Source: Halorhabdus tiamatea SARL4B (GTDB lineage Archaea; Halobacteriota; Halobacteria; Halobacteriales; Haloarculaceae). From it: a stretch of 64,000 nucleotides of DNA. Positions 38,380 to 55,483 of this stretch are shown one piece after another. The notes under the pieces are model-generated. The model saw only the letters and a program-made list of their open reading frames with translations. It did not search any database and was not told where the DNA came from. The stretch spans positions 496,001-560,000 of the forward strand of contig NC_021921.1 of assembly GCF_000470655.1 (NCBI RefSeq). Reading direction: 5' to 3'. The position numbers and the translations under genes are program-made. The number at the start of each line of letters is the position of its first letter. Positions within the stretch are counted from its first letter, which is position 1.

Positions 38380-38435
38380 CGAGCGTCGGTCGCAAGGATA
38401 ACGCTATTAACGATTCATCGAGTACAGTCGAGTGC

Positions 38436-38508
38436 AGTCCCGTGGTGTAGTGGCCAATCATAGAGGCCTTTGGAGCCTCTGACGGCGGTTCGAATCCGCC
38501 CGGGACTA
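38436..38508 (+). tRNA. tRNA-Gln (anticodon TTG)
   Basis: 73 bases. Acceptor stem AGTCCCG pairs with CGGGACT; discriminator A at 38508. The anticodon stem gaggc/gcctc encloses the loop CTTTGGA, giving anticodon TTG (Gln, CAA). The T arm is GGCGG TTCGAAT CCGCC. CCA is not encoded. T-rich bases follow. A 30-bp perfect copy of the 3' end (38480-38509) lies at 38591-38620, so the gene is an integration site. Confidence 0.95.
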
Positions 38509-38509
38509 T
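38480..38509 (+). repeat. 3' end of tRNA-Gln, first copy of a 30-bp direct repeat
   Basis: Bases 38480-38509 (T arm, 3' acceptor strand, discriminator and one more base) recur without mismatch at 38591-38620. This is the normal form of an att core at a tRNA gene. Confidence 0.85.
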
Positions 38510-38590
38510 TTTGCCGCGAGCAAGTTCGCGAGCGGCAAATACGTCCAGCGGATTCGAAGCTGGGAACGAAACGAGCGATAGCGAGTGGAG

Positions 38591-38620
38591 TGACGGCGGT
38601 TCGAATCCGCCCGGGACTAT
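38591..38620 (+). repeat. Second copy of the tRNA-Gln 3' end (att-like)
   Basis: 30-bp perfect match to 38480-38509. No 5' half of a tRNA precedes it, so it is not a gene. It has no integrase beside it; only 81 bases separate the two copies, suggesting a former insertion now almost wholly lost. Confidence 0.85.
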
Positions 38621-38641
38621 CGTTACCACCTTTTTACTGCA

Positions 38642-38665
38642 GAGGGGTGCCAGTCGGCACCCCTC
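38642..38665. repeat. Perfect 10-bp hairpin
   Basis: GAGGGGTGCC and GGCACCCCTC flank the loop AGTC. There is a T-run before it and an A-run after it, so in neither direction is it a typical terminator, though it could end transcription of something on the plus strand. Confidence 0.55.
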
Positions 38666-38874
38666 CTTGCAAAAAGCTGGACCAAAAATGACCTCAACCT
38701 CGCTGCTCACGGCTCCCGTTGGTCGCCGTTCGCAATTCCGAGGCCCTCACTTCGTTCGAGCCTCGCTCCGCTCGGTCGAGTAAAACGGCCCGCTTCGCTC
38801 GCCGTATGCCAGCCGTATCTCAAATCGGTCCGGCAGTTCTGAACCAGGAAACGACGCAAGCGAAGCGAGCAAAG

Positions 38875-38895
38875 TGACCGCGGTTCGAATCCGCT
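38875..38895 (+). repeat. Third, imperfect copy of the tRNA T arm
   Basis: The segment tgaccgcggttcgaatccgc and one more base match 19 of 21 positions of the T-arm part of the tRNA-Gln repeat. It stops before the acceptor strand. Likely an older att scar. Confidence 0.5.
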
Positions 38896-39123
38896 GAGAG
38901 AAAACCGCTCTCTCAAGCCGTGCTTCACGTTGTTCAGCACGACGCCGGAAGACTCGCTTTGCTCGTCTTCCGAGCCTTCGTTCACTTCGTTCACGAGGAC
39001 GCCCGGGGCCGTGACTTGAGGGGTCAATCCTTGCGTCCAAATGTTTCCGTGGCGTCGCTGTCGGCTCAGATCTCACGTCCGTTTGACGTTGGTGTTATTA
39101 CGTCGGCGTGTCTCTGCTGGCGT

Positions 39124-40686
39124 ATGTCTGATAGCGACCAGGCGACGCTGCCTGGAACGGAATCGGATCTACTCACACTCGATACACTCGAGAACCATCT
39201 GTGGGCTGCTGCGGACAAGCTTCGCGGGAGCATCGACTCCGCGGACTACAAGAACTACATCTTCGGGCTCCTCTTCCTCAAGCGCGCGAACGACCGCTTC
39301 GAAGAGGAAACTGAAGAGGTCGCCGAGGAACTCGGAATCGAACAAGAGACTGCCCGAGAGGATCGCGACCTCCACGAGGAGTTCTGGATTCCCGAACGTG
39401 CCCGCTGGGATCACATCAAAGCCAAGGAGACCGATGTCGGTGCGGCGCTGAACAAAGCGCTCGCGGCCATCGAAGACGAGAACGACCCGATCGCGGACCG
39501 CGTGCTCACGACGGTCGATTTCAACGACACGGAGCGACTGCCCGACGCGCTCCTCGCCGATCTCGTCTCGCACTTCACGAAGCATCGCTACCGGAACGTC
39601 GATCTCAAGGACCCCGACATCTTTGGGCGGGCTTACGAGTACCTCATCCGCGAGTTTGCCGACGACGCCGGGAAGAAAGGCGGCGAGTTCTACACGCCCC
39701 GCGAAGTCGTCCGCCTCATCGTCAAGTGTGTCAACCCCGAACCGGGCCATCGTGTCTATGACCCCTGTTGTGGCTCCGGCGGCATGTTGATCTACTCCGC
39801 CGAGCACATCCGCGAGTCCGGCGGCGACATGGCGGACATCTCGCTGTACGGCCAGGAGAAGAACCTGAACACGTGGGCGATCGGCCAGATGAACGTCCTG
39901 TTGCACGAACTCTACGACGCCAACATCGAGAAAGGCGACACCATCACCGATCCCCAGCGCGTCACCCCACACGACGAACTCGAAGTGTTCGACCGGGTCA
40001 TCGCGAACCCGATGTGGAACCAGAAGGAGTGGAACAAGGACTGGGTCGAGGAGAACGAGCCGTACAACCGCTTCCCCTACGGCCTGCCGCCGTCGAATCG
40101 CGGGGACTGGGCGTGGATACAGTTGATGATCGCGTCGCTCAACGAAACGGGGAAGGCGGGCGTCGTCATGGACAACGGCGTCCTCTTCCGGTCGCGCTCG
40201 GAGAAGAAGATCCGCAAGCCCGTCCTGGAGGACGACCTCGTCGAGGCCGTGATCGCCCTGCCGGAGAACCTGTTTTACAACACCTCCTCGCCGGGGTGTA
40301 TCCTCATCCTGAACAAGGACAAGCCCGAAGAGCGCGAGGGCAAGGTCCAGTTCATCTACGCCGAGGACCAGACGCTTCGGGAATCGGACGTGCAGGTGTT
40401 CGAAGAGCTATCGAACCAGAACCAGTTGACTGACGAGGGCGTCGAGTACCTCGCCGAGACGTTCCAGACGGGCCGCGAGGAGGACCACCACAGCCGGCTG
40501 GTCGATCTGGACGAGATCGAGGAAAACGACTGGAACCTGAACGTGCCCCGCTACGTCGATACCACGGAGCCGGAGGAACCCATCGACGTGAGCGAGAAAC
40601 TTGAGGAGTTGGACCGACTGGCCGAACAGCGCCGGAAGACCGACGAGGAACTGCAGCAGTACATGGAGGAGTTGGACTATCGATGA
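39124..40686 (+). CDS. hsdM: Type I restriction-modification methylase subunit HsdM
   Basis: 520 residues. An N-terminal helical bundle (LENHLWAAADKLRGSIDSAD) leads to GGEFYTPREVVRLIV, SAM-binding motif I DPCCGSGG at 213-220, and motif IV NPMW at 295-298. The usual NPPY/F is altered at the third and fourth positions, but many type I HsdM proteins have such variation. N6-adenine methylation is the expected reaction. It overlaps hsdS by ATGA (40683-40686). The ATG at 39124 matches the conserved N-terminus; the frame upstream is unrelated. Confidence 0.93.
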   Translation: MSDSDQATLPGTESDLLTLDTLENHLWAAADKLRGSIDSADYKNYIFGLLFLKRANDRFEEETEEVAEELGIEQETAREDRDLHEEFWIPERARWDHIKAKETDVGAALNKALAAIEDENDPIADRVLTTVDFNDTERLPDALLADLVSHFTKHRYRNVDLKDPDIFGRAYEYLIREFADDAGKKGGEFYTPREVVRLIVKCVNPEPGHRVYDPCCGSGGMLIYSAEHIRESGGDMADISLYGQEKNLNTWAIGQMNVLLHELYDANIEKGDTITDPQRVTPHDELEVFDRVIANPMWNQKEWNKDWVEENEPYNRFPYGLPPSNRGDWAWIQLMIASLNETGKAGVVMDNGVLFRSRSEKKIRKPVLEDDLVEAVIALPENLFYNTSSPGCILILNKDKPEEREGKVQFIYAEDQTLRESDVQVFEELSNQNQLTDEGVEYLAETFQTGREEDHHSRLVDLDEIEENDWNLNVPRYVDTTEPEEPIDVSEKLEELDRLAEQRRKTDEELQQYMEELDYR

Positions 40687-41948
40687 GTGAGGCAGTTGCC
40701 GAAGACGAAAAGAGGGATGGGTACATGCGGGTACAGTTAGGGCCGACAGAATGGATAATTCCAGAAGAATGGGAAATTACATCAATTGAAGATTGTGCGG
40801 ACTACATCGCGGGTACTACTTTTCCAAAAGAATATCAAGGTAACTCAAGTGGAGAGTTGCCGTTCTACAAAGTTAGCGACATGAGTGAGTGTAGGTGGAA
40901 GATGGATAGAGCGAATAATTACATCTCTAAAGACAAGGCAGAGGAACTGAATGCGACTATTGCCTCGTCGGAGACGACCATATTCCCGAAGCTTGGACAG
41001 GCTTTGTTGACTAACAAACGCCGAATCCTTACACAACCTTCTGTATTTGATAATAATGTCGCTGGGTTGGTTGGAAAAGATATCTTAGATCGTTACCTGT
41101 TCTACTTTCTCAACTTCACAGATTTTAGCCCGTATGCTAATTCTGGAACAGTCCCCTCTCTGAGTAAGGGAGATATACAATCTATAAAACTCCCTCTCCC
41201 CCCACAACACGAACAGCGCCGCATCGCCGACATCCTCTCGACGGTCGACAAGCAGATTCAGCAGACAGACGAGATTATTGGAAATATCGAAGATCTCCGA
41301 TTCGGACTTATGAGTGAGTTCTTTCATACTGGCTATTTCGAGCATTCGCTAACCGAGAAACCAACGTTCGGCCAGGTCCCCGAAGACTGGGAGATTCATG
41401 AGTTATCCCAGGTCGCTGATGTCGAGATGGGATCCTCACCCAAATCTGAGTATTACAACGAGACGGGTGAGGGACTCCCATTCTACCAGGCTAATAACGA
41501 ATTTGGATATCGAAACCCCACTCATGATCGCTGGTGTTCAAATCCAAATAAAACTGCAGATGAAGGAGATACACTCGTCACAATCCGTGGAACTTACGTT
41601 GGGCAGGTCAATGTAGCTAAAGAACGGTGCAGCATAGGCAGAGGGCTTGCTGCAGTGAGTGCAAAGGATGTTGATCAAGAGTATATTTATCATCACTTAG
41701 CACACCGTGAGCGGTATGTGAAATCTATCGCTTCAGGAAGTACATTCGATTCAATTAACAGTAATGAGTTAGAAAGTCTATCGGTATTGGTGCCTCCTCC
41801 TGATGAGCAACAGAAAATCGCTTCTTGTCTTAAAAGCCTGCAAAAGAAGTATCTTGCTGAACGGAAGTACAAACAGAAACTCCAAGAACTCAAACGCGGT
41901 CTCATGCAGGACCTGCTCACTGGCACGGTCCGCGTCGATCCAGACTGA
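40683..41948 (+). CDS. hsdS: Type I restriction-modification specificity subunit HsdS
   Basis: 421 residues with the normal two-half plan: a first recognition domain (about 15-170), the conserved spacer LPPQHEQRRIADILSTVDKQ, a second recognition domain (about 220-380, starting FGQVPEDWEIHELSQV), and a closing spacer with PDEQQKIASCLKSLQKKY. The DNA of both recognition domains is clearly lower in GC than the spacers and all neighbouring genes, the usual sign of exchange of recognition domains between strains. Coupled to hsdM. Confidence 0.92.
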   Translation: MSEAVAEDEKRDGYMRVQLGPTEWIIPEEWEITSIEDCADYIAGTTFPKEYQGNSSGELPFYKVSDMSECRWKMDRANNYISKDKAEELNATIASSETTIFPKLGQALLTNKRRILTQPSVFDNNVAGLVGKDILDRYLFYFLNFTDFSPYANSGTVPSLSKGDIQSIKLPLPPQHEQRRIADILSTVDKQIQQTDEIIGNIEDLRFGLMSEFFHTGYFEHSLTEKPTFGQVPEDWEIHELSQVADVEMGSSPKSEYYNETGEGLPFYQANNEFGYRNPTHDRWCSNPNKTADEGDTLVTIRGTYVGQVNVAKERCSIGRGLAAVSAKDVDQEYIYHHLAHRERYVKSIASGSTFDSINSNELESLSVLVPPPDEQQKIASCLKSLQKKYLAERKYKQKLQELKRGLMQDLLTGTVRVDPD

Positions 41949-42060
41949 TTCGATTGCCCGCTGGCCGGTATTCTTCGCTTCGCCAGTCAAACTACCACCG
42001 CGAATGACGACAACGGCGTCGCTTGAACCGATCTAATTTTATTTCGGTCCTCTTCTCTAC

Positions 42061-42402
42061 AATCGGACAACCTATTCGGCCCTGCAATTCAAATTCTCGC
42101 CAAATTTTGAAATTGCCCGCCCCCGAATCGAGCGCGAGTCCACTAGGATGGTGCTTATGCAGGACTGCCACGAACAACTGCTCGAACACGGGCGCACCAC
42201 TGAAGGCGTCTATCAGACCGCGAACAACGCCGTCGAGCGCCTCGAAGCGGATGGCGTCGTCACTGAAATGACAAGGAACAAACAGAATCGGGTGTTCCGC
42301 GCGGAAGAGATCATGGAGATCGTCGAGCGACCGGTCAGAGAGCTTCCTGACCCAGGTGCACTCGTCGATGTCGAGCAGGCGTGGAACCTTCCGGAGCGTT
42401 GA
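42061..42402 (+). pseudogene. C-terminal remnant of a Fic-type protein
   Basis: The readable part, 42148-42402 (84 codons), contains YQTANNAVERLEADGVVTEM and NRVFRAEEIMEIVERPVREL, the winged-helix tail that closes many Fic-family proteins. The frame continues upstream to about 42061 without a matching Fic core and without the HxFxD/NGN active site. The whole catalytic part is missing. It could be a small regulator of the restriction operon in its own right, since it starts with ATG, but truncation is the simpler reading. Confidence 0.5.
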
Positions 42403-42452
42403 CGAGAACAGTGAATAGTTTGATACAGCCTCGCGGAAAATTGGCGTGATAG

Positions 42453-45422
42453 ATGCCCGACGAGTACGCCGAATCCGAACGCCCGGCTCTGGAAGCCCTC
42501 CAGCGGCTTGGCTGGGATGTCCGCGACCAGCAACAGGCCAACTGGGCCGACCCACGCGAGACCCAATCCTCGGCCGTCCTCGAACCGCGACTACGCGACG
42601 CCGTGAAGCGGCTGAACCCCTGGCTCAACGAGAACAACCTGAACAAGGCTGTGCGGGAGATTCAGCAGGTCGCCGGGACGAACACGATGGACGAGAACGA
42701 GCAGATCCACGAAAAGCTCGTCCGTCACACGACCGTCGAGCAGGACCGCGGCAATGGCAAACAACACTACACGGTCCAGTACATCGACTACGAGAACCCC
42801 GAAACCAACGACTTCTTCGCACTCAATCAGTTCCGCGTCGCGGGGCCTGTCGAGGTCATCAAACCCGACGTCGTGCTGTTCGTCAACGGCATCCCGCTCG
42901 GCGTCGTCGAGTGCAAGAGCCCACAGATCCCCGAACCGAAGTCCGAAGCGCTCGACCAACTCACCCGCTACCAGAACGAACGCGAGGGTGAGGCCGAGGG
43001 TGCGGAAGAACTCTTCCGGTACAACCAGTTCTCCGTCGCCACCTGGATGGAAGGCGCGGTGATGGGCACCTACCGGACGCCGAAAGACCAGTACAAGCCC
43101 TGGCGCGACGCCTATCCCTTGGAGGACGACGAACTCATCGACCGGTTCGACCTCGAGGGCTACCTGCCCGACCAGTACCGGATGCTCTACGCGCTGTTCG
43201 AACCCGAGCGCTTACTCGACCAACTCCGACACTACACGGTGTTCGAAGAGAGTCAGAGCAGGACGATCAAGATGGTCGCTCGCTATCAGCAGTACCGGGC
43301 CGTCCGGAAGGCCCTCGAACGGATCGACAAGCGCGGCCAGCGCGAGGCCAACGGCGGCGTCGTCTGGCACACCCAGGGCTCGGGCAAGTCGCTCACGATG
43401 CTTTTCCTCGCCTTGAAGCTCCGCCGCCTCGAGGACGACCCGACGCTCGTACTCGTCACCGATCGGCGGGCACTCAACGACCAGATTCACGCGACGTTCG
43501 AGCGCTGTGGCTTCCCCAATCCGAAGAAATCCCAGAGCATCGAGGACCTTCGCGAGCGCCTCCAGTACGATGCCGGCGAGACGATCACGACGCTCATCCA
43601 CAAGTTCCAGACGACCGACAACGAGGACGATGACGACGAGTTTCCAGTGCTCTCTCGGAACGAGAATATTTATGTGATGGCCGACGAGGCCCACCGAACC
43701 CAGGACAAGAACCTCGCGAACAACATGCGAACGGCGCTTCCGAACGCCTTCTACGTCGGCTTCACCGGGACGCCCATCGAGAAGGACGAGGTCAACACCC
43801 GCCGAACCTTCGGCAACTACATCGACACGTACACGATCGACCAGTCGCTGGAGGACGGCGCGACGGTCGAGATCCTGTATCAGGGCCGGCTCGCCGACAT
43901 CCATCTCGAAGGCGAAACGCTGGATCGACTGTTCGATCGTATCTTCTCGGACAAGACGGAGGAGGAGAAAGCAGCGATTCAGAAACGCTACGCCCGCACG
44001 CAGGACCTCGCCGAGGCACAGCCTCGCATTGATCGGGTCGCACTGGACATCGTCGAACACTTCGAGGAAGACGTCCCCCAGCCGTTCAAGGGGATGGTCG
44101 TCACCACGAGCAAGGAAGCGGCGGTCCGCTACAAGGAGACCCTCGACGATCTGAACGGGCCGGAATCGCGCGTCGTCATCTCTGAAGGGCATAACGACCC
44201 CGAGCACATCAAGCAGTGGACGCCCAGCAAGTCTGAGAAAAGCCGGTACAAGGAGTCGTTCGTCGATCCGAACGGCGAGGTCGAGTTACTCATCGTCTGC
44301 GATATGCTCCTGACGGGCTTCGACGCGCCGGTAGCCCAGGTGATGTACCTCGACAAGCCACTCCGGGAGCACAGCCTCTTGCAGGCGATCGCTCGTGTAA
44401 ACCGGCCCTTCGAAGAGAAGACTCATGGGCTCATCATCGACTACTACGGCGTCTCGGACGAACTGAAGGAGGCGCTTGCGATGTTCAGTTCGAGGGACGT
44501 CGAGCGGGCGATGGTGCCGGTCAAAGACAAACAAGAAGATCTCGAAGCGGCCCACAATAGGGCAGTGTCGTTCTTTGACGATCTCGATGCAGTGGAGAAG
44601 TGTGTGCAGTCGCTCGAACCGGACGACCGCCGCATCGAGTTCAAGAACGCGTTCAAACGCTTCTCGAAACTGATGGACATTGTCCTCCCGGACCCGATGG
44701 CCAACCCCTATCGGGACGACTTAGAGCAGCTCAGCACGATCTACGGGAAAGCGAAGGAGCGCTATCGTGACGAGACGATGAACCTCGAAGGCGCGGGGGC
44801 CAAGGTCCGAGAGCTCATTCAGGACCACATCACTTCCCAGGGGATCGAGATCTTGAACGATGAACCGGTATCCATCATGGACGAGGTCGAATTTGATGCG
44901 AGACTTGATGACCTAGAGAGCGACGAAGCCCGTGCGAGTGAGATGCAGAATGCGATCAAACACGAGATCAACGTTCGCTTCGACGAGGACCCAGTGCAAT
45001 ACGGGTCTCTCAAAGAGCGGCTTGAGGAACTCATCGAAAAGTACCGGGAAGGACGGCGTAGCGAACAGGGGACTATCGAAGAGCTGCGGACTCTGATGGA
45101 TGAGATCCGGTCACGCGACAAGGCTGCCCGTAGCAAAGGACTCCGGGGCGAAACAGACCTATCATTCTACCACGCGGTCGAAGACGTGCTGGATGAGCGC
45201 GATTTCGGAGAGGAGGAGTTCGTCGAACTCACGGCCGACTTGGTCGGGACTGTCGAGAAGTTCGTCACAAAGGTAGAGTGGAAGGAGCGAACTCACCTGC
45301 AGAATACGATGCGAAAAGAAGTGACGGGTCAACTGTATCGGTCTGAAATCGATCTCTCGGCAGAGGAACGGCGTGAACTTACCAACCGCGTCATCGAATT
45401 GGCGCGGGCTCACTACCAATGA
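42453..45422 (+). CDS. hsdR: Type I restriction endonuclease subunit HsdR
   Basis: 989 residues. The nuclease site is D139...E153-C-K155 (KPDVVLFVN, GVVECKSP). Translocase motifs follow: Walker A QGSGKS at 308-313, DEAHR from 411, GFTGTPIEKDE and the motif VI region LREHSLLQAIARVNRPFEE. The C-terminal third is helical, for assembly with HsdM/HsdS. This is the complete motor and nuclease of the system, so restriction should be functional. Its stop overlaps the start of the YgjP-like gene (ATGA, 45419-45422). Confidence 0.93.
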   Translation: MPDEYAESERPALEALQRLGWDVRDQQQANWADPRETQSSAVLEPRLRDAVKRLNPWLNENNLNKAVREIQQVAGTNTMDENEQIHEKLVRHTTVEQDRGNGKQHYTVQYIDYENPETNDFFALNQFRVAGPVEVIKPDVVLFVNGIPLGVVECKSPQIPEPKSEALDQLTRYQNEREGEAEGAEELFRYNQFSVATWMEGAVMGTYRTPKDQYKPWRDAYPLEDDELIDRFDLEGYLPDQYRMLYALFEPERLLDQLRHYTVFEESQSRTIKMVARYQQYRAVRKALERIDKRGQREANGGVVWHTQGSGKSLTMLFLALKLRRLEDDPTLVLVTDRRALNDQIHATFERCGFPNPKKSQSIEDLRERLQYDAGETITTLIHKFQTTDNEDDDDEFPVLSRNENIYVMADEAHRTQDKNLANNMRTALPNAFYVGFTGTPIEKDEVNTRRTFGNYIDTYTIDQSLEDGATVEILYQGRLADIHLEGETLDRLFDRIFSDKTEEEKAAIQKRYARTQDLAEAQPRIDRVALDIVEHFEEDVPQPFKGMVVTTSKEAAVRYKETLDDLNGPESRVVISEGHNDPEHIKQWTPSKSEKSRYKESFVDPNGEVELLIVCDMLLTGFDAPVAQVMYLDKPLREHSLLQAIARVNRPFEEKTHGLIIDYYGVSDELKEALAMFSSRDVERAMVPVKDKQEDLEAAHNRAVSFFDDLDAVEKCVQSLEPDDRRIEFKNAFKRFSKLMDIVLPDPMANPYRDDLEQLSTIYGKAKERYRDETMNLEGAGAKVRELIQDHITSQGIEILNDEPVSIMDEVEFDARLDDLESDEARASEMQNAIKHEINVRFDEDPVQYGSLKERLEELIEKYREGRRSEQGTIEELRTLMDEIRSRDKAARSKGLRGETDLSFYHAVEDVLDERDFGEEEFVELTADLVGTVEKFVTKVEWKERTHLQNTMRKEVTGQLYRSEIDLSAEERRELTNRVIELARAHYQ

Positions 45423-46162
45423 GCGAGCGTTTGCAACGTCACTACCACATTGGCCAGACCGTCGTTCCATATTCAATCGACTGGTCAGAAAAGCGGGAGA
45501 CGATGAGCCTCTCGATCGACGAATCACTGGAGCTGACCGTTACAGCGCCGATGAGCGCAACAACGGCCGACGTTGAGTCGGTACTCGACTCCCGACAAGA
45601 GTGGATTCTGGAGAAACTATACGGCCTGAAAGCTCAAGAGGGGCCACCCTATCCGAAGGAATACCTCAGCGGCGAGAAGCTTCAATATCGAGGACGCCAC
45701 TATCCGCTCGAAGTCGTTGAAGCGGATGTCCCCCAGCCCGAATTGTCGTTTGACGACCAGACGTTTTGGCTGCGTGTCCACCGTTTTGATGCAGATGGCG
45801 ACAAGATCAGCGTTCGCCGGAAGCGCCAGACAATTGTTGACTGGTTCGTCAAACGCGCTGAAGCGGAACTTCCAGAACGCGCGTCCCGCTTCGAAGCGAG
45901 GCTGGGACTCGAAGAAACCGACATCGAAGTTGGGGAGCTCGATGGCCGGTGGGGCGAGTACAGTAGTGGAACAGTTCGACTCCATTGGCGGTTGGTCCTC
46001 GCACCCGTCCGCATTCAGGACTACGTCGCGGTCCACGAGTTGTCGCATGGGGTCCATGCAGACCATACCGACGCGTTCTGGAATACTGTCGGAAGTCTCA
46101 TTCCGGACTATGAGAGCCGCCGTGAGTGGCTCAGATTGAACGGGAAGACGCTACAGATCTAA
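45419..46162 (+). CDS. YgjP-type metallopeptidase (SprT-like) in the RM operon
   Basis: 247 residues. Zinc site HELSH at 206-210 with the third ligand H216 (VHADH), then AFWNTVGSLIPDYESRREWL. The N-terminal part (about 1-130) is beta-rich. YgjP-like proteins are predicted metal-dependent hydrolases and are often encoded with type I restriction genes. Here the gene is coupled to hsdR by a 4-base overlap. Its function is unknown; a role in turnover of the HsdR motor, as ClpXP does in bacteria, is only a guess. Confidence 0.85.
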   Translation: MSERLQRHYHIGQTVVPYSIDWSEKRETMSLSIDESLELTVTAPMSATTADVESVLDSRQEWILEKLYGLKAQEGPPYPKEYLSGEKLQYRGRHYPLEVVEADVPQPELSFDDQTFWLRVHRFDADGDKISVRRKRQTIVDWFVKRAEAELPERASRFEARLGLEETDIEVGELDGRWGEYSSGTVRLHWRLVLAPVRIQDYVAVHELSHGVHADHTDAFWNTVGSLIPDYESRREWLRLNGKTLQI

Positions 46163-46438: not shown

Positions 46439-46446
46439 AATGTAAT
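46439..46446. repeat. Left 8-bp target duplication (aatgtaat)
   Basis: aatgtaat is found directly before the left inverted repeat and again at 47893-47900 directly after the right one. Confidence 0.85.
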
Positions 46447-47892
46447 GGTCGTGTCGCAAAGCGGTCTAGAGTTTGCCTCTGGTACTCTCAATTGAGAGGT
46501 CACAGCTCATTGCTGTTTTGGTCGATCGCTGGAGCAGTTCATCAAGGAACGCCTGGTAGTGCTCTGGATCAGCGTACTTCACCAGCCGAAGCTGGAGTAT
46601 CGCCTCTAATCCCTCCGTTGTCCAGCGCATCCACTGGTTCTTGCATCGCTTGCTGACTTCGCCCATCAGCCGTTCGACGGGGTTCGAGGTCCACGGCACC
46701 TCGAACCCCTCGACAGCCTGCTCGGCAAACGTCACGATCGACGGCACCCACCGCCGAAGATACCCCGCAGCCTTCTCTGACCCGTACTGATCCAACTGCC
46801 ACGCTGTCTTCTCGATACGCTCGGTCGTTCGCGCGATCCGCTCGCGGATCGCCGCGAACTCCTCTTCCGGCCGGTGCTTGGCGACCGAATTCTTCAGATG
46901 GAACACCTCGTCGATCACCTCCGAGACGATCTCGTTTCGTCGATCCAAGGAGAACACGCCGTCGTCCCAGAGGTTGTAGTCCAGTGTTCGGCCGACGTGG
47001 ACGAGATCAAGTTGGTGATTGCGATTTTCGTCGGTAAAGGCCGTGACCATACCCTCCTCAGCGTCACTGACGACCGTCGCGTCGTCAGTGACTGCGTCGA
47101 TGTCGTCGAGGTCGGCGGCTGTCTCGTCCCAGTCAGCGTTGACCGAGAGATCCAGCAGGGAGCGGGACTCCTCGGCAGTATCTTTGCCGAGCGTGGCTTG
47201 GACGGAGTGGTACGAGCGGTCGTCGTCTTGACTGTGACACTTCGTGGCGTCAGGAATAACCGCATCAGCGTCTGTGTCAGCGACACAGTCTGGAAGGAAC
47301 TGTTTGAGCTTGCTGCCGTATTCTCTGGCGCGGCGGTTGATCGTGGTCGGCGACGGCATCTCCGAGAGGATGCCGTCGCCGTGGTCAGCGGCGTCACGAT
47401 AGCTGAGCGAGGTAGCGAGATCGACGCTCTTGGCCGCAATGTCCTGCTGATAACGGTTTTCTCCGTCGAAGCTAAGAACATCTTCGACGGGGCGGAAGTA
47501 GCTGGGTTCGTCGTGGTCAGCGGCGGTATCTTCGACGTAGTGAAGGTCGAATTCGTGCTCACCGGCGGTTGTGACGGCCGTGCGGGTATCGGTACCGGCG
47601 CGTTGGTAGCGCTGGTCACCGTTGCCGTGGGCGTGTTTTTCACCACAGAGCGCCTCGACGCGAGCCGCGTCGAGGCTCTCGACGAGTCCTTCGAGAAGAA
47701 CTGATTCGATGTTCTGATCGGTGATGAACTCGGCAAGCGTGGCCAGCGGTATCGTTTTGTCGTCGTCGATGCTAACGGTCAACCGCACGTCGATTGTGGC
47801 GTGCATGGGGCACCTCTCGGAGTGGACACCAGAGGCGTCCCCTTCCTCAGGGGAGTCAGTTACTGAACTCTAGAGGACTTTGCGACACGACC
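46447..47892 (-). mobile_element. ISH6-like insertion sequence, complete
   Basis: 1446 bp with 27-bp terminal inverted repeats, 46447-46473 and 47866-47892; 24 of 27 positions match (both ends read ggtcgtgtcgcaaag). It is flanked by the 8-bp duplication aatgtaat and carries one transposase gene. The length, inverted repeats and 8-bp duplication fit the haloarchaeal ISH6 group. It has landed 16 bases upstream of the cspA start codon. Confidence 0.93.
46466..47806 (-). CDS. ISH6-family transposase
   Basis: 446 residues, intact. N-terminal TIDVRLTVSIDDDKTIPLAT and CGEKHAHGNGDQRYQRAG are typical of the ISH6 group, and the C-terminal TSNPVERLMGEVSKRCKNQW holds the conserved part thought to carry the final catalytic acid. 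The stop lies within the left inverted repeat. No frame damage is seen, so the element may still be mobile. Confidence 0.92.
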   Translation of the reverse strand: MHATIDVRLTVSIDDDKTIPLATLAEFITDQNIESVLLEGLVESLDAARVEALCGEKHAHGNGDQRYQRAGTDTRTAVTTAGEHEFDLHYVEDTAADHDEPSYFRPVEDVLSFDGENRYQQDIAAKSVDLATSLSYRDAADHGDGILSEMPSPTTINRRAREYGSKLKQFLPDCVADTDADAVIPDATKCHSQDDDRSYHSVQATLGKDTAEESRSLLDLSVNADWDETAADLDDIDAVTDDATVVSDAEEGMVTAFTDENRNHQLDLVHVGRTLDYNLWDDGVFSLDRRNEIVSEVIDEVFHLKNSVAKHRPEEEFAAIRERIARTTERIEKTAWQLDQYGSEKAAGYLRRWVPSIVTFAEQAVEGFEVPWTSNPVERLMGEVSKRCKNQWMRWTTEGLEAILQLRLVKYADPEHYQAFLDELLQRSTKTAMSCDLSIESTRGKL

Positions 47893-47900
47893 AATGTAAT
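47893..47900. repeat. Right 8-bp target duplication (aatgtaat)
   Basis: Matches 46439-46446 exactly; marks the right end of the insertion. Confidence 0.85.
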
Positions 47901-48208: not shown

Positions 48209-48832
48209 ATGGTATCCGTCCTGGGTGCTGACCTCTCGCTGTTGTTGCTGTTAGTGGGGGCGTTGTTAGTCATCGGCGAAGCGTTCGTCCCGGGTGCACA
48301 CTTCATCGTCCTCGGGATCGCGCTGTTGGTCGCTGGACTCGTCGGGTTGGCCCTTCCCCAGTCGCTGGGCATCTTTGCGGTCGTGATCATGGCCGGGCTC
48401 GTACTCGGCGTCGGGAGCGTCGCACTGTACGCCTACCGTCAGTTCGACTTCTACGGCGGAAAGGGGGCCGGGCAGACGAGCGACTCGGACTCGTTGAAGG
48501 GCAAGACCGGCCGCGTCACCGAACGTGTGACCGGAACGGACGGCGAAGTCAAACTCGACGGCGGCGGGTTCAATCCCTACTATCAGGCCCGAGCGTTCGA
48601 CAGGGAGATCCCCGAGGGCGAGGAGATCATCGTGGTCGATCCGGGCGGCGGGAACGTCATCACCGTCGAGTCGATGGCGACGCTGAGTGCTGACGACATC
48701 GACGCGGAGCTACAACGTGGCGTGGAGGACGAGCAGTCACAAGTCGAGGAGAACGGGTCCTCGACACGAGAGACGGCAGACGAGACACTGAGCGACCCGG
48801 GGGAACCCGACCGCGAGACTGAATCCGCCTAG
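48209..48832 (+). CDS. NfeD-family membrane protein
   Basis: 207 residues. Three membrane helices occupy about 5-75 (SLLLLLVGALLVIGEAFVPG and following), then an OB-fold-like NfeD domain (KGKTGRVTERVTGTDGEVKL, EGEEIIVVDPGGGNVITVES), and a Glu/Ser-rich tail. NfeD proteins pair with stomatin-like SPFH proteins. The SPFH gene follows at 48957, making this the standard NfeD/SPFH membrane pair. Function in archaea is unsettled. Confidence 0.88.
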   Translation: MVSVLGADLSLLLLLVGALLVIGEAFVPGAHFIVLGIALLVAGLVGLALPQSLGIFAVVIMAGLVLGVGSVALYAYRQFDFYGGKGAGQTSDSDSLKGKTGRVTERVTGTDGEVKLDGGGFNPYYQARAFDREIPEGEEIIVVDPGGGNVITVESMATLSADDIDAELQRGVEDEQSQVEENGSSTRETADETLSDPGEPDRETESA

Positions 48833-48956
48833 GACTGCCCGGGCTGGCACTGCCCGTCTGGCACTGACCGATCTGGGACTGCCCGGGCTGGCTGTTCTGG
48901 AGTGGTTCCACACCGAGCCCAACACTTTTGTTGCCATCCTGCCAATTCAGGGTTGT

Positions 48957-50084
48957 ATGCTATCGAGTATCCCGCTGCAACTGGGGGGTGCGGAGCTATT
49001 CCCCATTGTCGCCCTCGTATTGCTGGCGATTGCCGTGGTGACCGTCTGGCAGATGGTGGTCATCACCGACGCCACGGAAAAGAAAGCCCTCACGGTCCTC
49101 GGAGAGTACCGGAAGCTACTGGAACCGGGGATCGCGTTCGTCCCGCCGTTCGTCTCCGCGACGCACACGTTCGACATGCGGACACAGACGTTAGACGTGC
49201 CACGTCAGGAGGCGATCACCCGTGACAACTCGCCGGTGACTGCCGACGCCGTCGTCTACATCAAGGTGATGGACGCAAAGAAGGCGTTCCTCGAGGTCGA
49301 CAACTACAAACGAGCGGTCTCGAACCTCGCCCAGACGACGCTACGGGCCGTCCTGGGCGACATGGAACTCGACGACACACTCAACAAACGCCAGGAGATC
49401 AACGCCAAGATCCGCAAGGAACTCGACGAGCCGACCGACGAGTGGGGCATTCGCGTCGAGAGTGTCGAGGTTCGAGAGGTCAACCCGAGCAAGGACGTCC
49501 AGCAGGCAATGGAGCAACAGACCTCCGCGGAGCGTCGCCGCCGTGCGATGATCCTCGAAGCGCAGGGTGAACGCCGCTCCGCCGTCGAGGAGGCCCAGGG
49601 TGAGAAGCAATCGAACATCATCCGCGCTCAGGGTGAAAAGCAGAGCCAGATCCTCGAGGCCCAGGGTGACGCCATCTCGACTGTCCTCCGTGCGAAGTCT
49701 GCCGAAGCGATGGGCGAACGCGCGGTCATCGAGCGTGGCATGGAAACCCTCGAGTCGATCGGCGAGGGCGAGTCGACGAAGTTCGTCCTCCCCCAGGAAC
49801 TCACGTCACTCGTCGGCCGGTACGGCAAGCACCTCACAGGGTCGGACACCCGGACCGAGGGCGAGATCCTGGAGGGGCTGGACTTCGACGACGAGACCCG
49901 CGAGATGCTCGGCCTGGACGACATCGAGGAGATCCTCGGCCAGATAGACCAGGAGGCCGAGGTCGACGTCGAAGAGATGGAAGAGCAAGCGCAGGCGGTC
50001 AAATCCGGCAAGGAGACGGCCGACATCAAAGACCCCGACGAGGTCATCGAGGAGATGGACAACGAATTCAACACCGACGAGTAG
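48957..50084 (+). CDS. SPFH/stomatin-like (band 7) membrane protein
   Basis: 375 residues. One N-terminal membrane helix (about 10-32), then the SPFH domain (TVLGEYRKLLEPGIAFVPPF, DVPRQEAITRDNSPVTADAV, AQTTLRAVLGDMELDDTLNK). A long coiled coil follows with a series of related steps (ILEAQGERRSAVEEAQGEKQ, then further AQGEKQ repeats) and an acidic tail. These proteins form large membrane-bound rings. Partner is the NfeD gene upstream; 124 bases with short Gly/Cys-rich repeats separate the two. Confidence 0.9.
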   Translation: MLSSIPLQLGGAELFPIVALVLLAIAVVTVWQMVVITDATEKKALTVLGEYRKLLEPGIAFVPPFVSATHTFDMRTQTLDVPRQEAITRDNSPVTADAVVYIKVMDAKKAFLEVDNYKRAVSNLAQTTLRAVLGDMELDDTLNKRQEINAKIRKELDEPTDEWGIRVESVEVREVNPSKDVQQAMEQQTSAERRRRAMILEAQGERRSAVEEAQGEKQSNIIRAQGEKQSQILEAQGDAISTVLRAKSAEAMGERAVIERGMETLESIGEGESTKFVLPQELTSLVGRYGKHLTGSDTRTEGEILEGLDFDDETREMLGLDDIEEILGQIDQEAEVDVEEMEEQAQAVKSGKETADIKDPDEVIEEMDNEFNTDE

Positions 50085-50216
50085 TCAGCAGACGACACGA
50101 CAGCCAGCCGATCGTTCCACTATCCTCCGAGGCTGGCCAAGTAACGCGATTCAGTGGTTGGGGTGGTGTCGAATCGAGCGAAGGCGTTTTGTGACTCGAA
50201 CCCGTCAACTGACCTA

Positions 50217-50831
50217 ATGGAAGGGGACGGTGTCGACGAGAGCAAGCGCGCGACGCTCCGTCGGTTCGCCGCACTGGGGGCTGCGAGTCCACTCGTTCGA
50301 CTCGCAGATTCGGGCAGCGACAGCACTGCACCGGGGGCGATCGTCGGGTATCTCTCGACGACGCCCGGGGCACACTTCTCGAAACTACGGGACGACCTTC
50401 AGTTGGGAACTGGCGAGACCCAGCATCACCTTCGAACGCTGTTACAGGACGACGCGATCGAAAGCCAGCGCGACGGCGAGTATCGGCGCTTTTTCCCGGC
50501 CGACCGGTTCAGCGACTTTGAGCGGACTGCGCTGGGATACCTCCGGCGGGAGACGCCACGTGGGATGATCGTCGAACTCCTCGGGGATCCGAGTGTCACC
50601 GCGAACGGGCTGGCCGAACGCCTCGACGTCTCGAGTCCAACCGTCAGCAAGTACGCGGCACAGCTAGAGGAGGCCGGCCTGCTCACCCGAGAAGACGGAT
50701 ACGCACTCAGACAGCCAGAGACACTGTTAATGTTGGTCGTGAGATACGCCGAATCCTTCGGCGAGGACGCGATCGCCTTCGCCGCCGAGGCCGACGACCA
50801 CGTCGCCTACGACGGCGAAACTGACGAATAG
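50217..50831 (+). CDS. Two-winged-helix transcription regulator
   Basis: 204 residues. Residues about 38-95 (GYLSTTPGAHFSKLRDDLQL, TQHHLRTLLQDDAIESQRDG) form the first winged helix. Residues about 115-170 (VELLGDPSVTANGLAERLDV, SSPTVSKYAAQLEEAGLLTR) form the second. The N-terminus (MEGDGVDESKRATLRRFAAL) may be a short tail. Two-wing regulators of this type are common in haloarchaea; the target is unknown. ATG 50217 is preferred to an earlier in-frame start at 50154. Confidence 0.8.
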   Translation: MEGDGVDESKRATLRRFAALGAASPLVRLADSGSDSTAPGAIVGYLSTTPGAHFSKLRDDLQLGTGETQHHLRTLLQDDAIESQRDGEYRRFFPADRFSDFERTALGYLRRETPRGMIVELLGDPSVTANGLAERLDVSSPTVSKYAAQLEEAGLLTREDGYALRQPETLLMLVVRYAESFGEDAIAFAAEADDHVAYDGETDE

Positions 50832-50839
50832 CGGACCGC

Positions 50840-51088
50840 TCAGGCGTCGACCATCCACGTGGTCGACGAGGAGTAGCCCCACTTCTCGACGGTCAGTTCG
50901 TACTCGCCCTCCTGAAGGGCCGCCATGTTCGTCCCGACTTCCTTCGCCGAGAGACCGAGTTCCTCGCCGATGAGCCGGGATTTGAAGTACGTCTGGTCGT
51001 CGGCGTTGGCTCGCAGGTACTCGAGGATCCGACGCTGTTTGTCCGAGAGCGGACCGTCGTCGTGGGTCGTTGCCGCACTCGTGCTCAT
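50840..51088 (-). CDS. Small winged-helix protein (DUF7123-like)
   Basis: 82 residues from the ATG at 51088. The protein reads SDKQRRILEYLRANADDQTY, SRLIGEELGLSAKEVGTNMA and a final strand WGYSSSTTWMVDA, a compact winged helix. It resembles a haloarchaeal small family (DUF7123, from memory). It is convergent with the two-winged regulator upstream, with only 8 bases between. Function unknown. Confidence 0.78.
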   Translation of the reverse strand: MSTSAATTHDDGPLSDKQRRILEYLRANADDQTYFKSRLIGEELGLSAKEVGTNMAALQEGEYELTVEKWGYSSSTTWMVDA

Positions 51089-51239
51089 GTATCGAGGTAG
51101 CGAAGAGACAGGTATAGGTCGTTTGGTATAGTCGGCTAATCGACTCACGTCTTGCGATTAGTCGGGTAGAAAGTCCGCTGTGGCCGCCGGGAGCCTCCCG
51201 AGCGGCCGGGACGTGGTACGACCAGGAAACGGGGTCGTG

Positions 51240-51638
51240 TTAGATGTCCTCTTCGATGATCTCGCCGACAGCGAAGTTCGACTTCACCTCGGAGATTTCG
51301 ACTTTGACGCGGTCGTTGATCTCCGCGCCGGGGACGATGATGACGTAACCCCGCTCGACGCGGGCGATGCCATCGCCTTGCTTGCCGATGTCTTCAATCT
51401 CGACGTAGCGGATCTCGCCGGTTTCGACTGGCGGTTGCGGCTCGCTCGGTGCCGTGTCGGTACTCGGCTGTTCGTCAGTCGATTCCTCCTCGCCGGAGAT
51501 GACTGCAATTCGATAGGTTTCGCCGGCTTCGATCGAGCCAGTGTCGACCTCCCGGCGTGGTACCTCGACGACGTATCGGTCGTCTTCGGCAGTGACCTCA
51601 GCACTGAACAGACAGAGGAGTTGCTCTGAGATTTCCAA
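51240..51638 (-). CDS. TRAM-domain RNA-binding protein
   Basis: 132 residues. The C-terminal about 60 residues are a TRAM domain (VEIEDIGKQGDGIARVERGY, VKVEISEVKSNFAVGEIIEE). The N-terminal half has a beta strand set (ERY-type) and an acidic linker (EEESTDEQPSTDTAPSE). TRAM proteins bind tRNA or other RNA and act as RNA chaperones, notably in archaea at low temperature. ATG at 51638. Confidence 0.85.
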   Translation of the reverse strand: MEISEQLLCLFSAEVTAEDDRYVVEVPRREVDTGSIEAGETYRIAVISGEEESTDEQPSTDTAPSEPQPPVETGEIRYVEIEDIGKQGDGIARVERGYVIIVPGAEINDRVKVEISEVKSNFAVGEIIEEDI

Positions 51639-51698
51639 GGTTGAACCTCCGTTCCCGGCGTCGGAGCCATCCCTAAAGAACTTGTCGACCGCTGACGG

Positions 51699-52361
51699 TC
51701 ACGAGTGCTCACTGCCGATCGGACTGCCGTCCGGTCGCTTGGCCCCCTCGGAGTCGTGAACTACAACGCCGTCGACGTCCGTGGGTTGGTAGTTGTCCCG
51801 CACGCCGATGGCTTCCTCACGCTCCCGAATGGCGCGTTCTTTGAGCGTCCCAGCCAGCTCCTCGGCGTCCGCTCGCGAGACGTCACGCCCGAGTCCCTCA
51901 CATTCGTGGGCGCGAACCGGCCCCTCGCGATCGACGACGCTGTCCATCGAGCCAGCTTCGGCCTCCCCGTCTCCGATCGAGAGACTGAACGGGTAGGTCC
52001 GACAGAGCAGTGGGCGGCGATCGTAAATCGAGCACTTCTCTCCGTCGGCGTCGTAGAACGTACAGTCCCCACACGCCCCGGTCTGGAGTGCCCACTCGAA
52101 GGTCTCACCGGTCGTGGTCCCGTCGTCGGCTTCCGTGAGGCCAAAGGGCATCGGTCGTGCAATCGCGGACCATTCGGGGTCGCCGTCACGCTGGATCTCC
52201 CGTATCTCCTCAGGGAAGATCGTGGCCGTGTGGTCCTCGCCATCGAGCCCGCGACAGCACTTCCCACAGCGGGTACATTCGAAGCCGATCGACTCGATCG
52301 CGTCCGCGATGACGTCGACGTCGAGTCCGCGAGCGACTGCGAGGTCGGCTTCGAGGTCCAT
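51699..52361 (-). CDS. YkgJ-type cysteine-cluster protein
   Basis: 220 residues. Cysteines cluster as FECTRCGKCCRG (near 28-40), GACGDCTFYDADGEKCSIYD and RRPLLCRTYPF, the signature of the YkgJ family, which probably binds a Zn or Fe-S cluster. The C-terminal part is helical and charged. The ATG at 52361 is used because it begins the acidic, conserved-looking stretch MDLEADLAVARGLD. Function unknown. Confidence 0.85.
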   Translation of the reverse strand: MDLEADLAVARGLDVDVIADAIESIGFECTRCGKCCRGLDGEDHTATIFPEEIREIQRDGDPEWSAIARPMPFGLTEADDGTTTGETFEWALQTGACGDCTFYDADGEKCSIYDRRPLLCRTYPFSLSIGDGEAEAGSMDSVVDREGPVRAHECEGLGRDVSRADAEELAGTLKERAIREREEAIGVRDNYQPTDVDGVVVHDSEGAKRPDGSPIGSEHS

Positions 52362-52451
52362 GTGCAGGATATCGTAGCGAGACGAAAAAGGGCGTCGAGA
52401 CAACGGACAATCGACGTAACTGACCGAACTGCACAGACGACGAGTGCCGAG

Positions 52452-52730
52452 TCACTCGGTCGTGCGGTAGTAGACCTGCTTGCGGGCGTCGCGGTAGCTG
52501 TACCGTGAGGAGACGAGATCGGCGTCTTCGAGCCGGTTGAGCGCGTATCGGACGGTCCGATCCGGGAGCAGCGATTCCGTGGCGAGTTCGCCCTGCGAGA
52601 GGGGCTGGTCGGTCTCGAGTACCTTCGCGATCAACTTTGCGCTCGGGGGCAACTCGCGGAGCCGTTCACGGAACTCCCCCTCCGTGAGGACGATCTCCGT
52701 CCGCGAACCGTCTTTCACAGTCGTGCTCAT
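52452..52730 (-). CDS. Small winged-helix regulator, paralogue of 24095
   Basis: 92 residues. It has LRELPPSAKLIAKVLETDQP, recognition helix LLPDRTVRYALNRLEDADLV and end RYSYRDARKQVYYRTTE, closely matching the gene at 24095-24361. The ATG at 52730 is preferred to an earlier start because the first 9 codons upstream are basic and unlike the paralogue. The region upstream (52755-52795) carries repeated AT-rich words that look like its own operator. Confidence 0.8.
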   Translation of the reverse strand: MSTTVKDGSRTEIVLTEGEFRERLRELPPSAKLIAKVLETDQPLSQGELATESLLPDRTVRYALNRLEDADLVSSRYSYRDARKQVYYRTTE

Positions 52731-52754
52731 ACGCGAAGCCAGTCGGAACCGACA

Positions 52755-52795
52755 CATAAGTATTGCCTATATGGAGAACATAAGACCTTATATGG
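52755..52795. promoter_or_regulatory. Possible operator between HTH gene and methyltransferase
   Basis: The words ataagtattgcctatatgg (52756-52774) and ataagaccttatatgg (52780-52795) are related. The second contains the inverted repeat ATAAG-ac-CTTAT. They lie upstream of the HTH start (52730) and before the methyltransferase start (52873), a natural place for an autoregulator site. Confidence 0.45.
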
Positions 52796-52872
52796 AAGGG
52801 GATGCCCTTGTATTTTGGCGGACAGACGGATCCAATACCGTTTTAATCACCCCGTGGTGAACATTCCATAGC

Positions 52873-53577
52873 GTGAAAGGACAGGAGTGGTACCAGGCCG
52901 ACGAAATCGCCGAGGCCTACGAGGAAAAGCGGTTCTCGGGTGGGGGTCGTCTCATCGACCGGCGGGAGAAGCAGGCCGTCCTCGATGCTATCGGGCCGGT
53001 CGAGGACAAGCGCGTCCTCGAGATCGCTTGCGGGACCGGCCGGTTTACCGTAATGTTAGCCGAACGTGGGGCAGACATCGTCGGCCTGGATATCTCCGCG
53101 GCGATGTTACAGCAAGGCCGGGAGAAGGCGCGGGCGGCAGCAGTCGAATCACATCTCGACTTTATGCGGGGCGATGCCGGACGACTCCCGTTCCCCGACG
53201 ATCACTTCGACGCGGTCATCGCGATGCGGTTTTTCCACCTCGCGGACACGCCGGCGTCGTATCTCAGCGAGATGCGGCGAGTCTCGAAGGAGGTGGTCTT
53301 CTTCGATACCTTCAAGCGCTTCAGCACCCGGTCGATCTACAACTGGGCGCTACCGATGGGATCGCGGCTGTACTCACAGTGGGAGATCGACCGACTCCTC
53401 GGAGAAGCCGACCTCGAATTGATCAGGTCGACCCACGACTTCATCTTCCCGTACGGACTGTACCGTGCGATCCCTGACAGTCTCGCGTCGCCCATCCGAA
53501 CGGTCGATCGGGCAATCGGGGGACTTCCGGGCGGAAAACGACTCTCGTCGGTCTCCTACTGGCACTGTCAGGTCTAA
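52873..53577 (+). CDS. SAM-dependent methyltransferase (class I)
   Basis: 234 residues. SAM-binding motifs RVLEIACGTGRFTVMLAERG (near 47) and IVGLDISAAMLQQGREKA, then FPDDHFDAVIAMRFFHL. The C-terminal part is less conserved and holds an aromatic-rich segment FIFPYGLYRAIPDSL. It resembles UbiE-type small-molecule or lipid methyltransferases. GTG start; TATA-like cgttttaatc near 52838. It sits ahead of a glycosyltransferase gene. Confidence 0.85.
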   Translation: MKGQEWYQADEIAEAYEEKRFSGGGRLIDRREKQAVLDAIGPVEDKRVLEIACGTGRFTVMLAERGADIVGLDISAAMLQQGREKARAAAVESHLDFMRGDAGRLPFPDDHFDAVIAMRFFHLADTPASYLSEMRRVSKEVVFFDTFKRFSTRSIYNWALPMGSRLYSQWEIDRLLGEADLELIRSTHDFIFPYGLYRAIPDSLASPIRTVDRAIGGLPGGKRLSSVSYWHCQV

Positions 53578-53647
53578 CCTGACGTCGTATTGTCACAGGC
53601 AGTCGATCTCGCGACGTTTTTAGTCATCCGGACTCCTATGGTGACGT

Positions 53648-54550
53648 ATGGACCTCTCGGTAGTCGTCCCGACGCTCAACGGACGGGAGCAACTCGCGCG
53701 GACGCTCGACTCCGTGAGCGAACACGTTTCCGGGGCGGCGGTGATCGTCGTAAACGGCCCTTCGGCGGACGGGACGACCGGGATGGTCCGCGATCGCGAG
53801 GACGTCGACGTCCTCGTCGAGATCGCCGACCGATCGACCAACGCCGCACGCAACGCGGGCATCGATCACGCGACCGGGGACGCGATCGCGTTCGTCAATC
53901 AGGGAGTTTCCGTGACCGACGAATGGGAAAGGGCGATCCGTGAAGGACTCAGAGAGGCTCCCGTCGTCACTGGACCGACACACCAGCGCGTGCGAGCCGG
54001 GAAGACGACCGAACGAGCCGAGACTGGTTCTGTGGCCGGCCGATCAGTGACGTTCGTCAACGCCGACAACGTCGCCTTGACGCGGAACGTCCTGGCCGAT
54101 CTCGACGGCTTCGACGAACACGTGCCCGTCGCGGACGCACGGGACCTCTCACACCGGGCGGCCGGTCTGAGCCGGGACGTCGCCTGGCAAGCGGGGATGG
54201 CCGTCGAGCGGCCGGTCGGAGCCGACGGCGGCACCAGCGAGACGGACTGGGATCGCGAGTACCGGTCGTTCGCGTATCGGCTGGCGAAAAACTACGGGGT
54301 GCGCCCGGCTGTCCTTGCACGGATCGGACGCCGTGCGTTCTCGGACGCGGGCAGTCAACTCCGCCGTGTCCTCGCCGGCGAACGATCGGCCTCAGGCTGG
54401 TTGCGCGCCGGCAGGGACGTCCTGACAGCGACTCCTGGTGGGTTCAAAGACGGACTCACCGCCAGGGCGCGGGATCGAAGCGACCGCCGGAATCCGCGTG
54501 GCCGCTCGACCGGCGAGGACCGGGCGGTAGCCGTCTACGACTCACGCTAA
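53648..54550 (+). CDS. Glycosyltransferase family 2-like protein
   Basis: 300 residues. The GT-A fold shows LSVVVPTLNGREQLARTLDS at the start, STNAARNAGIDHATGDAIAF, and a divalent-metal region that reads FVNADNVALTRNVLADLDGF (usual DxD here is weakly kept). The C-terminal part is helical and basic (RRNPRGRSTGED), perhaps to bind the membrane surface. The donor and acceptor are unknown. TATA-like cgtttttag near 53611-53619. Confidence 0.8.
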   Translation: MDLSVVVPTLNGREQLARTLDSVSEHVSGAAVIVVNGPSADGTTGMVRDREDVDVLVEIADRSTNAARNAGIDHATGDAIAFVNQGVSVTDEWERAIREGLREAPVVTGPTHQRVRAGKTTERAETGSVAGRSVTFVNADNVALTRNVLADLDGFDEHVPVADARDLSHRAAGLSRDVAWQAGMAVERPVGADGGTSETDWDREYRSFAYRLAKNYGVRPAVLARIGRRAFSDAGSQLRRVLAGERSASGWLRAGRDVLTATPGGFKDGLTARARDRSDRRNPRGRSTGEDRAVAVYDSR

Positions 54551-55360: not shown

Positions 55361-55439
55361 CGAGATGGACGTAGAGCGGTCCGGTCATTAAATCATCGTT
55401 ATCGTGAGGGGATCGGGCCGACGCCCCCGTCTTAGTAAC

Positions 55440-55451
55440 ACTTATATAGAA
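55440..55451 (+). promoter_or_regulatory. TATA box of the thermosome gene
   Basis: acttatataga forms a strong TATA box about 38 bases before the ATG at 55484, consistent with a strongly expressed chaperonin. Confidence 0.55.
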
Positions 55452-55483
55452 CCGCAAACGACGGATAAAGTGAGGCTACACAT

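Follow-up and report, generated by a model that had tools for sequence, protein, structure and literature searches.

The 3' end of a tRNA-Gln(TTG) gene of Halorhabdus tiamatea SARL4B is found again twice behind the gene, shortly before a type I restriction operon. Copies of a tRNA end beside an accessory operon usually point to integration, and an earlier note on this DNA took them for the trace of repeated integrase action at one tRNA. Are they the scars of an island or part of something else? We have analyzed the locus in a window of 64,000 nt (the whole stretch, C2:496001-560000), and we have compared it with the rest of its genome (G000), with two genomes of the same genus (G005 and G006) and with other haloarchaea. 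From these comparisons we conclude that the repeated tRNA-Gln tail is one case of a family of short, hairpin-rich repeats without genes, not the scar of a single island.

The tRNA-Gln locus

The features of the locus are given in Table 1. A 30-bp sequence, TGACGGCGGTTCGAATCCGCCCGGGACTAT, forms the end of the tRNA (38480-38509) and appears again without any change (30/30) at 38591-38620, with a spacing of 81 bases, exactly as the earlier note had described. The worn third copy that it placed near 38875 is also there: 19 of its first 20 bases match (38875-38894). The acceptor part of this third copy is broken by a row of small hairpins, and GCCCGGG resumes at 39001-39007. These copies are not due to chance, because the genome has just three places which match the 22-mer GGTTCGAATCCGCCCGGGACTA with no more than 3 mismatches: the tRNA-Gln, copy 2 and a second tRNA-Gln. 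Between the tRNA-Gln and copy 2 there is also an inverted copy of the T-loop core, GGATTCGAAGC in + strand letters, which the earlier note overlooked.

Table 1. Features of the tRNA-Gln locus, in window coordinates. R1 is a covariance model of 22 pairs built from 31 units.
Feature	Position	Strand	Evidence
tRNA-Gln(TTG), anchor	38436..38508	+	ARAGORN; Rfam RF00005
Unit 1, complete, 111 bp	38509..38619	+	R1 match of 76.3 bits, E 1.1e-14, partly by construction (unit 1 is one of the 31 units used for R1); 111/111 identical in G005
Hairpin of segment a, conserved tandem G.A (GC-GA-GC ... GC-GA-GC)	38510..38539	+	RNA fold, covariation
Inverted T-loop core of tRNA-Gln (GGATTCGAAGC on + strand)	38548..38558	-	Sequence comparison, identity profile
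Hairpin of segment b, GAGCGATAGCGAG type	38559..38597	+	Unit extraction, fold
Direct copy 2, T loop to discriminator base, inside the exact 30-bp repeat 38591-38620	38598..38619	+	
Dispersed intergenic repeat between copies 2 and 3	38625..38793	+	Genome similarity: 91% over 129 bp, 97% over 64 bp elsewhere
Unit 2, right half only, ends in direct copy 3 (GGTTCGAATCCGC, 38882-38894)	38833..38894	+	R1 match of 24.3 bits, E 0.0015, model positions 41-110; not used for building R1
Hairpin row interrupting the acceptor part of copy 3, GCCCGGG at its end	38895..39007	+	Common to G005 and G006
Type I restriction operon HsdM, HsdS, HsdR, then YgjP-like gene	39124..46162	+	Pfam

The dispersed repeat contains a T-rich hairpin (TTTTTACT...GCAAAAA...GGACCAAAAA). 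Sequences which resemble its start directly follow other tRNA ends, such as those of Ile(GAT) and of Phe, in the latter case behind its unit.

When the region 38500-39030 was compared with plasmid collections, the matches, in ten haloarchaeal plasmids, were limited to parts of the dispersed repeat or the hairpin row; phage collections gave no match. The exact 22-mer is present in two viral contigs, each with a whole tRNA-Gln and with no R1 match. A scan of 38400-39130 with Rfam gave nothing above threshold except the tRNA.

The restriction operon

The nearest genes to the copies are those of the HsdM/HsdS/HsdR operon, which had been noted before, and the YgjP-like gene. The HsdM ORF extends from 38920 to 40686, with a likely start at ATG 39124. 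The insertion element that had been placed just behind the copies as well is in fact 7.5 kb away (46446-47893). It has 28-nt inverted ends (89%) which flank a 446-aa ORF with a weak UPF0236 match. The G+C content goes down to 0.465 at 41000-41999, over the HsdS gene.

If the copies were the scars of repeated integrase action at tRNA-Gln alone, this action would have imported the operon, which begins just beyond the last acceptor-like GCCCGGG. The related genomes speak against this reading. In G005, three T-arm copies come after the tRNA-Gln; behind the third, the row of hairpins is 98.5% identical to that of the window over 65 bp. In G006, the flank of copy 3 is 83% identical over 187 bp. A tblastn search with HsdM, HsdS and HsdR found none of them in the approximately 18 kb downstream of the copies, either in G005 or in G006; the genes scanned in these stretches include a solute-binding protein and parts of an ABC transporter. 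The link between repeats and operon is thus lost by the very comparison which the earlier note had named as able to refute it. Nor does the search for a right-hand att site that it had proposed find one: apart from the second tRNA-Gln, the 22-bp core (up to 3 mismatches) has no such copy in the genome, and there is no second GCCCGGGACTA beyond the operon within the window, so no right-hand att of that length is present there. The statement that no integrase gene is now left agrees with our results: none was found among the 20 ORFs of the window scanned against Pfam, and the seven matches to PF00589 in the genome are all outside the window span.

Copies of tRNA ends in the genome

The tRNA-Gln is not a special case. 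The terminal 24 nt of every tRNA were sought in the 400 bp behind it, with up to 6 mismatches; these thresholds were fixed after the first genome had been inspected. The survey leaves out two of 44 RF00005 matches in G000, which are below the cut-off, one of the 41 tRNAs of G005, all 42 tRNAs of G004 and those missed by RF00005, such as Pro(CGG). A copy of the own tail is found behind 22 of the 42 tRNAs of the window's genome, 23 of 40 in G005 and 16 of 42 in G006. Upstream there is none in G000 (0/42, each with the full 400 bp), and reversed copies downstream are found for 4 of its 42 tRNAs. When the three genomes are pooled, the own tail is found in 61/124 cases versus 257/4998 for the tails of other tRNAs. 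The reverse complement of the T core (14 nt, up to 3 mismatches) is present within 150 bp downstream in 63/124 cases, versus 1/84 in the upstream control. Upstream flanks are shorter than 400 bp in many stretches of G005 and G006.

A similar picture is given by tRNA-Gln loci in named records, a set which excludes 8 haloarchaeal and 6 other loci with short flanks or no tRNA found. Among the matches listed, a direct copy is found within 400 bp in 19 of 66 haloarchaeal loci and in none of the 39 loci from other archaea. The inverted core alone is less clear: among the matches listed, 17/66 downstream versus 10/66 "upstream", where several of the upstream cases are in split tRNA-Gln introns and others are weak matches. 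Of the proposal of repeated integrase action at one tRNA, recombination directed to tRNA 3' ends still ranks among the leading ideas on how the copies arose; the restriction to a single tRNA has to be given up.

The same genome also contains a probable true element, which looks different: its body measures about 46 kb and includes an integrase-like ORF, and the shared core is short. No unit is found behind tRNA-Arg(TCG) (C2:48852-48926). About 45.6 kb beyond it there is TCCCTGCAGCGCCC, which resembles the tRNA end TCCCTCAGCGCCC. The neighbouring ORF, on the reverse strand, matches Phage_integrase weakly (E 6e-4, which does not reach the Pfam cut-off). A tRNA-Arg(TCG)-specific unit follows directly after TCCCTGCAGCGCCC. 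The putative element extends from G000 C2:48852 to about 94545 (L345 and L344), with the integrase-like ORF at its right end. It is probably an integrated element which has displaced the resident unit from its tRNA; its ends are putative. With own-tail copies throughout the genome and an element of such a different aspect, we consider it very improbable that the tRNA-Gln copies are scars of an island which brought the operon. As judged from the sequences compared, the operon is merely a downstream neighbour, outside the repeat system.

Structure of the units

We have extracted 82 units, with a median size of 128.5 bp (range 69-217). All have the same order: hairpin a, inverted T-loop core, hairpin b and direct core, the last of which repeats the host tRNA from its T loop to its final base. 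In 68 copies from three genomes, identity to the own tRNA is 0.88 at position -22 and 0.96-1.00 from there to -1, the last base of the tRNA. Outside, it amounts to 0.07-0.38 from -25 outwards on one side, and on the other to 0.51 at the first base past the tRNA and 0.29-0.44 afterwards. The copies were selected on 24 nt, so the values inside are inflated and those outside are unaffected. At -23 and -24, in the outer 5' strand of the T stem, identity is 0.50-0.60, thus what is conserved is not a proper T arm. The earlier description of T-arm copies without a 5' half has to be modified in this sense: the tail copies are real, and they are not whole T arms, as the match runs from -22 to -1 and does not consistently take in the outer 5' strand of the T stem. 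The inverted core is present in 82/82 units with up to 6 mismatches of 13, and in 72 with up to 3. It matches best at tRNA positions -20 to -12.

The hairpins often have a tandem G.A beside a C-GNA-G loop. Double compensatory changes are found in 16 of the 22 pairs of R1; its units were picked for their direct and inverted cores, whose pairing is partly due to construction, while stems a and b were unselected. The GNA-loop motif has a marked strand bias in 79 distinct units: 41 are on the tRNA-sense strand and only 1 on the other. We have considered single-stranded DNA because mini-hairpins with GNA loops and at least two G-C pairs are described as extraordinarily stable DNA (PMC4686876). The bias is indirect evidence and does not choose between DNA and RNA, since the tRNA-sense strand is also that of the RNA. 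We have also counted mismatches of the G.T and A.C types in order to tell RNA folding from DNA folding; their proportions are 3 to 1 in segment a, among 625 Watson-Crick pairs, 18 to 12 in the T core plus b, and 2 to 12 in b alone, a result that depends on the alignment penalty.

Distribution among haloarchaea

At an E value of 0.001, R1 has matches in 90 of the 99 genomes sampled from the order. In a sample of 100 genomes of the phylum, 14 of the 15 members of the order and none of the other 85 have a match. Matching genomes contain from 2 to at least 36 matches (36 candidates were scored per genome). No match is found in G043 and G150, two essentially complete genomes of the order. At 10/10 loci from ten genomes (nine besides that of the window), the best R1 match immediately follows a tRNA or belongs to a tandem series that does so. 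Going by these sequence matches, the units form a haloarchaeal, non-coding family whose members stand, alone or in tandem rows, immediately 3' of tRNA genes.

Some individual loci may be mentioned. At L341 (479-903), a tRNA-His is followed by a unit and a 3' end resembling that of tRNA-His, both of which lie on the other strand and point the opposite way, which suggests an inversion. The genome of the window has GC-rich repeats in tandem (GACCGAAGGGAGGGTCTCGAAGAACGCGAACGG...) at C2 about 310.8 kb (L342, 900-1300), with no adjoining tRNA detected by ARAGORN. In G010, which belongs to another genus, the block from NfeD and Band7 to the thermosome (7400-19900 of L062, corresponding to 48209-57058 of the window) is also downstream of tRNA-Gln, in inverted orientation, so the tRNA-Gln flank appears to be a rearrangement point.

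Turnover between species

Species of the same genus differ by whole units. At tRNA-Gly(GCC), G006 has the order tRNA-X-Y, versus tRNA-Y in G000 and G005, and Y is identical in 154/154 positions. The 150 bp upstream of this tRNA are also 97-100% identical, so the conservation of Y may reflect vertical descent. At Ser(TGA), G006 has three units; G005 has a single one, 98% identical to the third of these. For tRNA-Gln, unit 1 is the same in G005 and in the window, and identity in the 150 bp before the tRNA is 64%. In other cases only half a unit is shared: identities of segments a and b are 1.00 and 0.46 for Pro(TGG), 0.67 and 0.97 for Asp(GTC), and for Val(TAC) 1.00 and 0.71 in one pair and 0.53 and 1.00 in another. 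These alignments indicate that whole units are gained and lost between species, and that their halves are swapped at the inverted core.

Within one genome, different tRNAs share practically no near-identical segments: a single pair reaches 0.92. Because of this, exchange seems to be confined to matching tRNAs, and any spread between different tRNAs would not be recent.

Possible origin of the units

Our tentative preference, to which we give somewhat less than an even chance, is that the units are non-autonomous cassettes which recombine at the T loop of tRNAs, perhaps in the form of folded single strands. The recombinase, provided in trans, would act at the near-palindromic T-loop sequence GGTTCRAATCC; no recombinase gene has been found inside the units. 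Insertion of a unit at the T loop would give the tRNA a new, identical 3' end, and its former end would become the direct copy downstream. The tRNA would thereby stay functional, and only units with a matching tail would be tolerated. In the folded strand, the inverted core would pair with the direct core, producing a double-stranded core from single-stranded DNA. It might also serve as a second junction, where unit halves are exchanged. This is the best supported of the pictures considered, since the copied block has its start in the T loop, with its dyad symmetry, and its end at that of the gene, as in tRNA-targeted integration (PMC8371274).

The cassette model is weakened by the fact that homologous recombination could explain exchange at matching tRNAs. 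In fact, there may be no dedicated enzyme at all. The palindromic T arm would be the site of rare duplications or template switches which create the units, homologous recombination and slippage between the 22-30-bp copies would rearrange them, and gene conversion would hold the copies to their tRNA. Unequal exchange would account for tandem units and for differences of whole units, and would fit the three tandem units of identical score behind a tRNA-Phe (L335, 920-1359), possibly a recent amplification; the limitation of exchange to matching tRNAs agrees as well. What it leaves unexplained, unless some further selection or mechanism is added, is a two-hairpin design shared behind unrelated tRNAs across the order, together with an inverted core in every unit and a strand-biased loop motif. 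We find this explanation rather unlikely.

The units might also have a function as RNA. The array would be the transcribed trailer of the tRNA, and the cores would be decoys for 3'-end processing or parts of a switch: once paired with the inverted core, the native T arm would leave the tRNA to be completed by the downstream copy. Such a structure is predicted for 38436-38625 (-89.8 kcal/mol, z -4.8), where the acceptor part of copy 2 pairs with the 5' strand of the tRNA. The stems covary, and the copies stop exactly at the last base of the tRNA, the expected processing point. Nevertheless, the presence of units varies freely among species of the same genus, G043 and G150 appear to do without them, as they have no R1 match, and the outer 5' strand of the T stem is not kept in the copies. 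A role as RNA is, in our opinion, rather unlikely, yet a serious alternative to the cassettes.

Comparison with known systems

We have found no description of this family of tRNA-tail units in the open-access literature; subscription papers were mostly outside our search, so this absence is weak evidence. The rtT repeats behind tyrT of Escherichia coli are tandem and non-coding, and each one has a copy of the tRNA 3' end. Our units differ from them in being found behind many tRNAs, in their inverted core and in having two hairpins each, and the stretch of the window scanned with Rfam has no match above threshold except tRNA. The REP/BIME sequences of enterobacteria are intergenic palindromic units with alternating orientation and mosaic assembly. 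In the units described here, on the other hand, the cores copy the adjacent tRNA and therefore differ at each locus.

Integrative elements which use tyrosine recombinases and target tRNAs resemble the units (PMC8371274) in that a block from the dyad-symmetric region of the tRNA to its 3' end is copied and the tRNA is left intact. A duplicated core which restores the 3' end is indeed present in the units; neither an integrase in or near the element nor a second core past the operon was found in the window. The units are also much smaller, about 70-220 bp, contain no recognised gene, have an extra inverted core, form tandem arrays and are found behind half of the tRNAs instead of one.

Integron cassette arrays have a comparable layout (PMC8946536 and, for archaeal integrons, PMC9668308): a recombination-like core is preceded by an inverted partner and a variable hairpin with internal loops, and there is a fixed platform at one end. 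Their attC sites recombine as folded single strands (PMC8946536). The likeness to attC is one of layout only; the fold and covariation of the units agree with it in outline. In contrast to integrons, no gene is recognised in the units, the platform is a tRNA gene and the folded strand is apparently the tRNA-sense one. The only match to IntI (TIGR02249) in the genome has 27.6 bits, versus a cut-off of 265. A dispersed analogue of an integron array can be imagined, with the tRNA as platform and its tail as address, where a recombinase acting in trans on single-stranded DNA would move gene-less cassettes with folded T-loop cores. We mention it as a conjecture of low probability.

If our reading of the units as a family is true, a type of repeat absent from the literature searched would organise the 3' flanks of tRNA genes across a whole archaeal class. 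Single copies of tRNA 3' ends in haloarchaeal genomes should then not be taken for island scars. The units would also offer a testable system for recombination directed by the T loop, or for the function of tRNA trailers: a short, defined unit at a known site, with pairs of species which are one unit apart.
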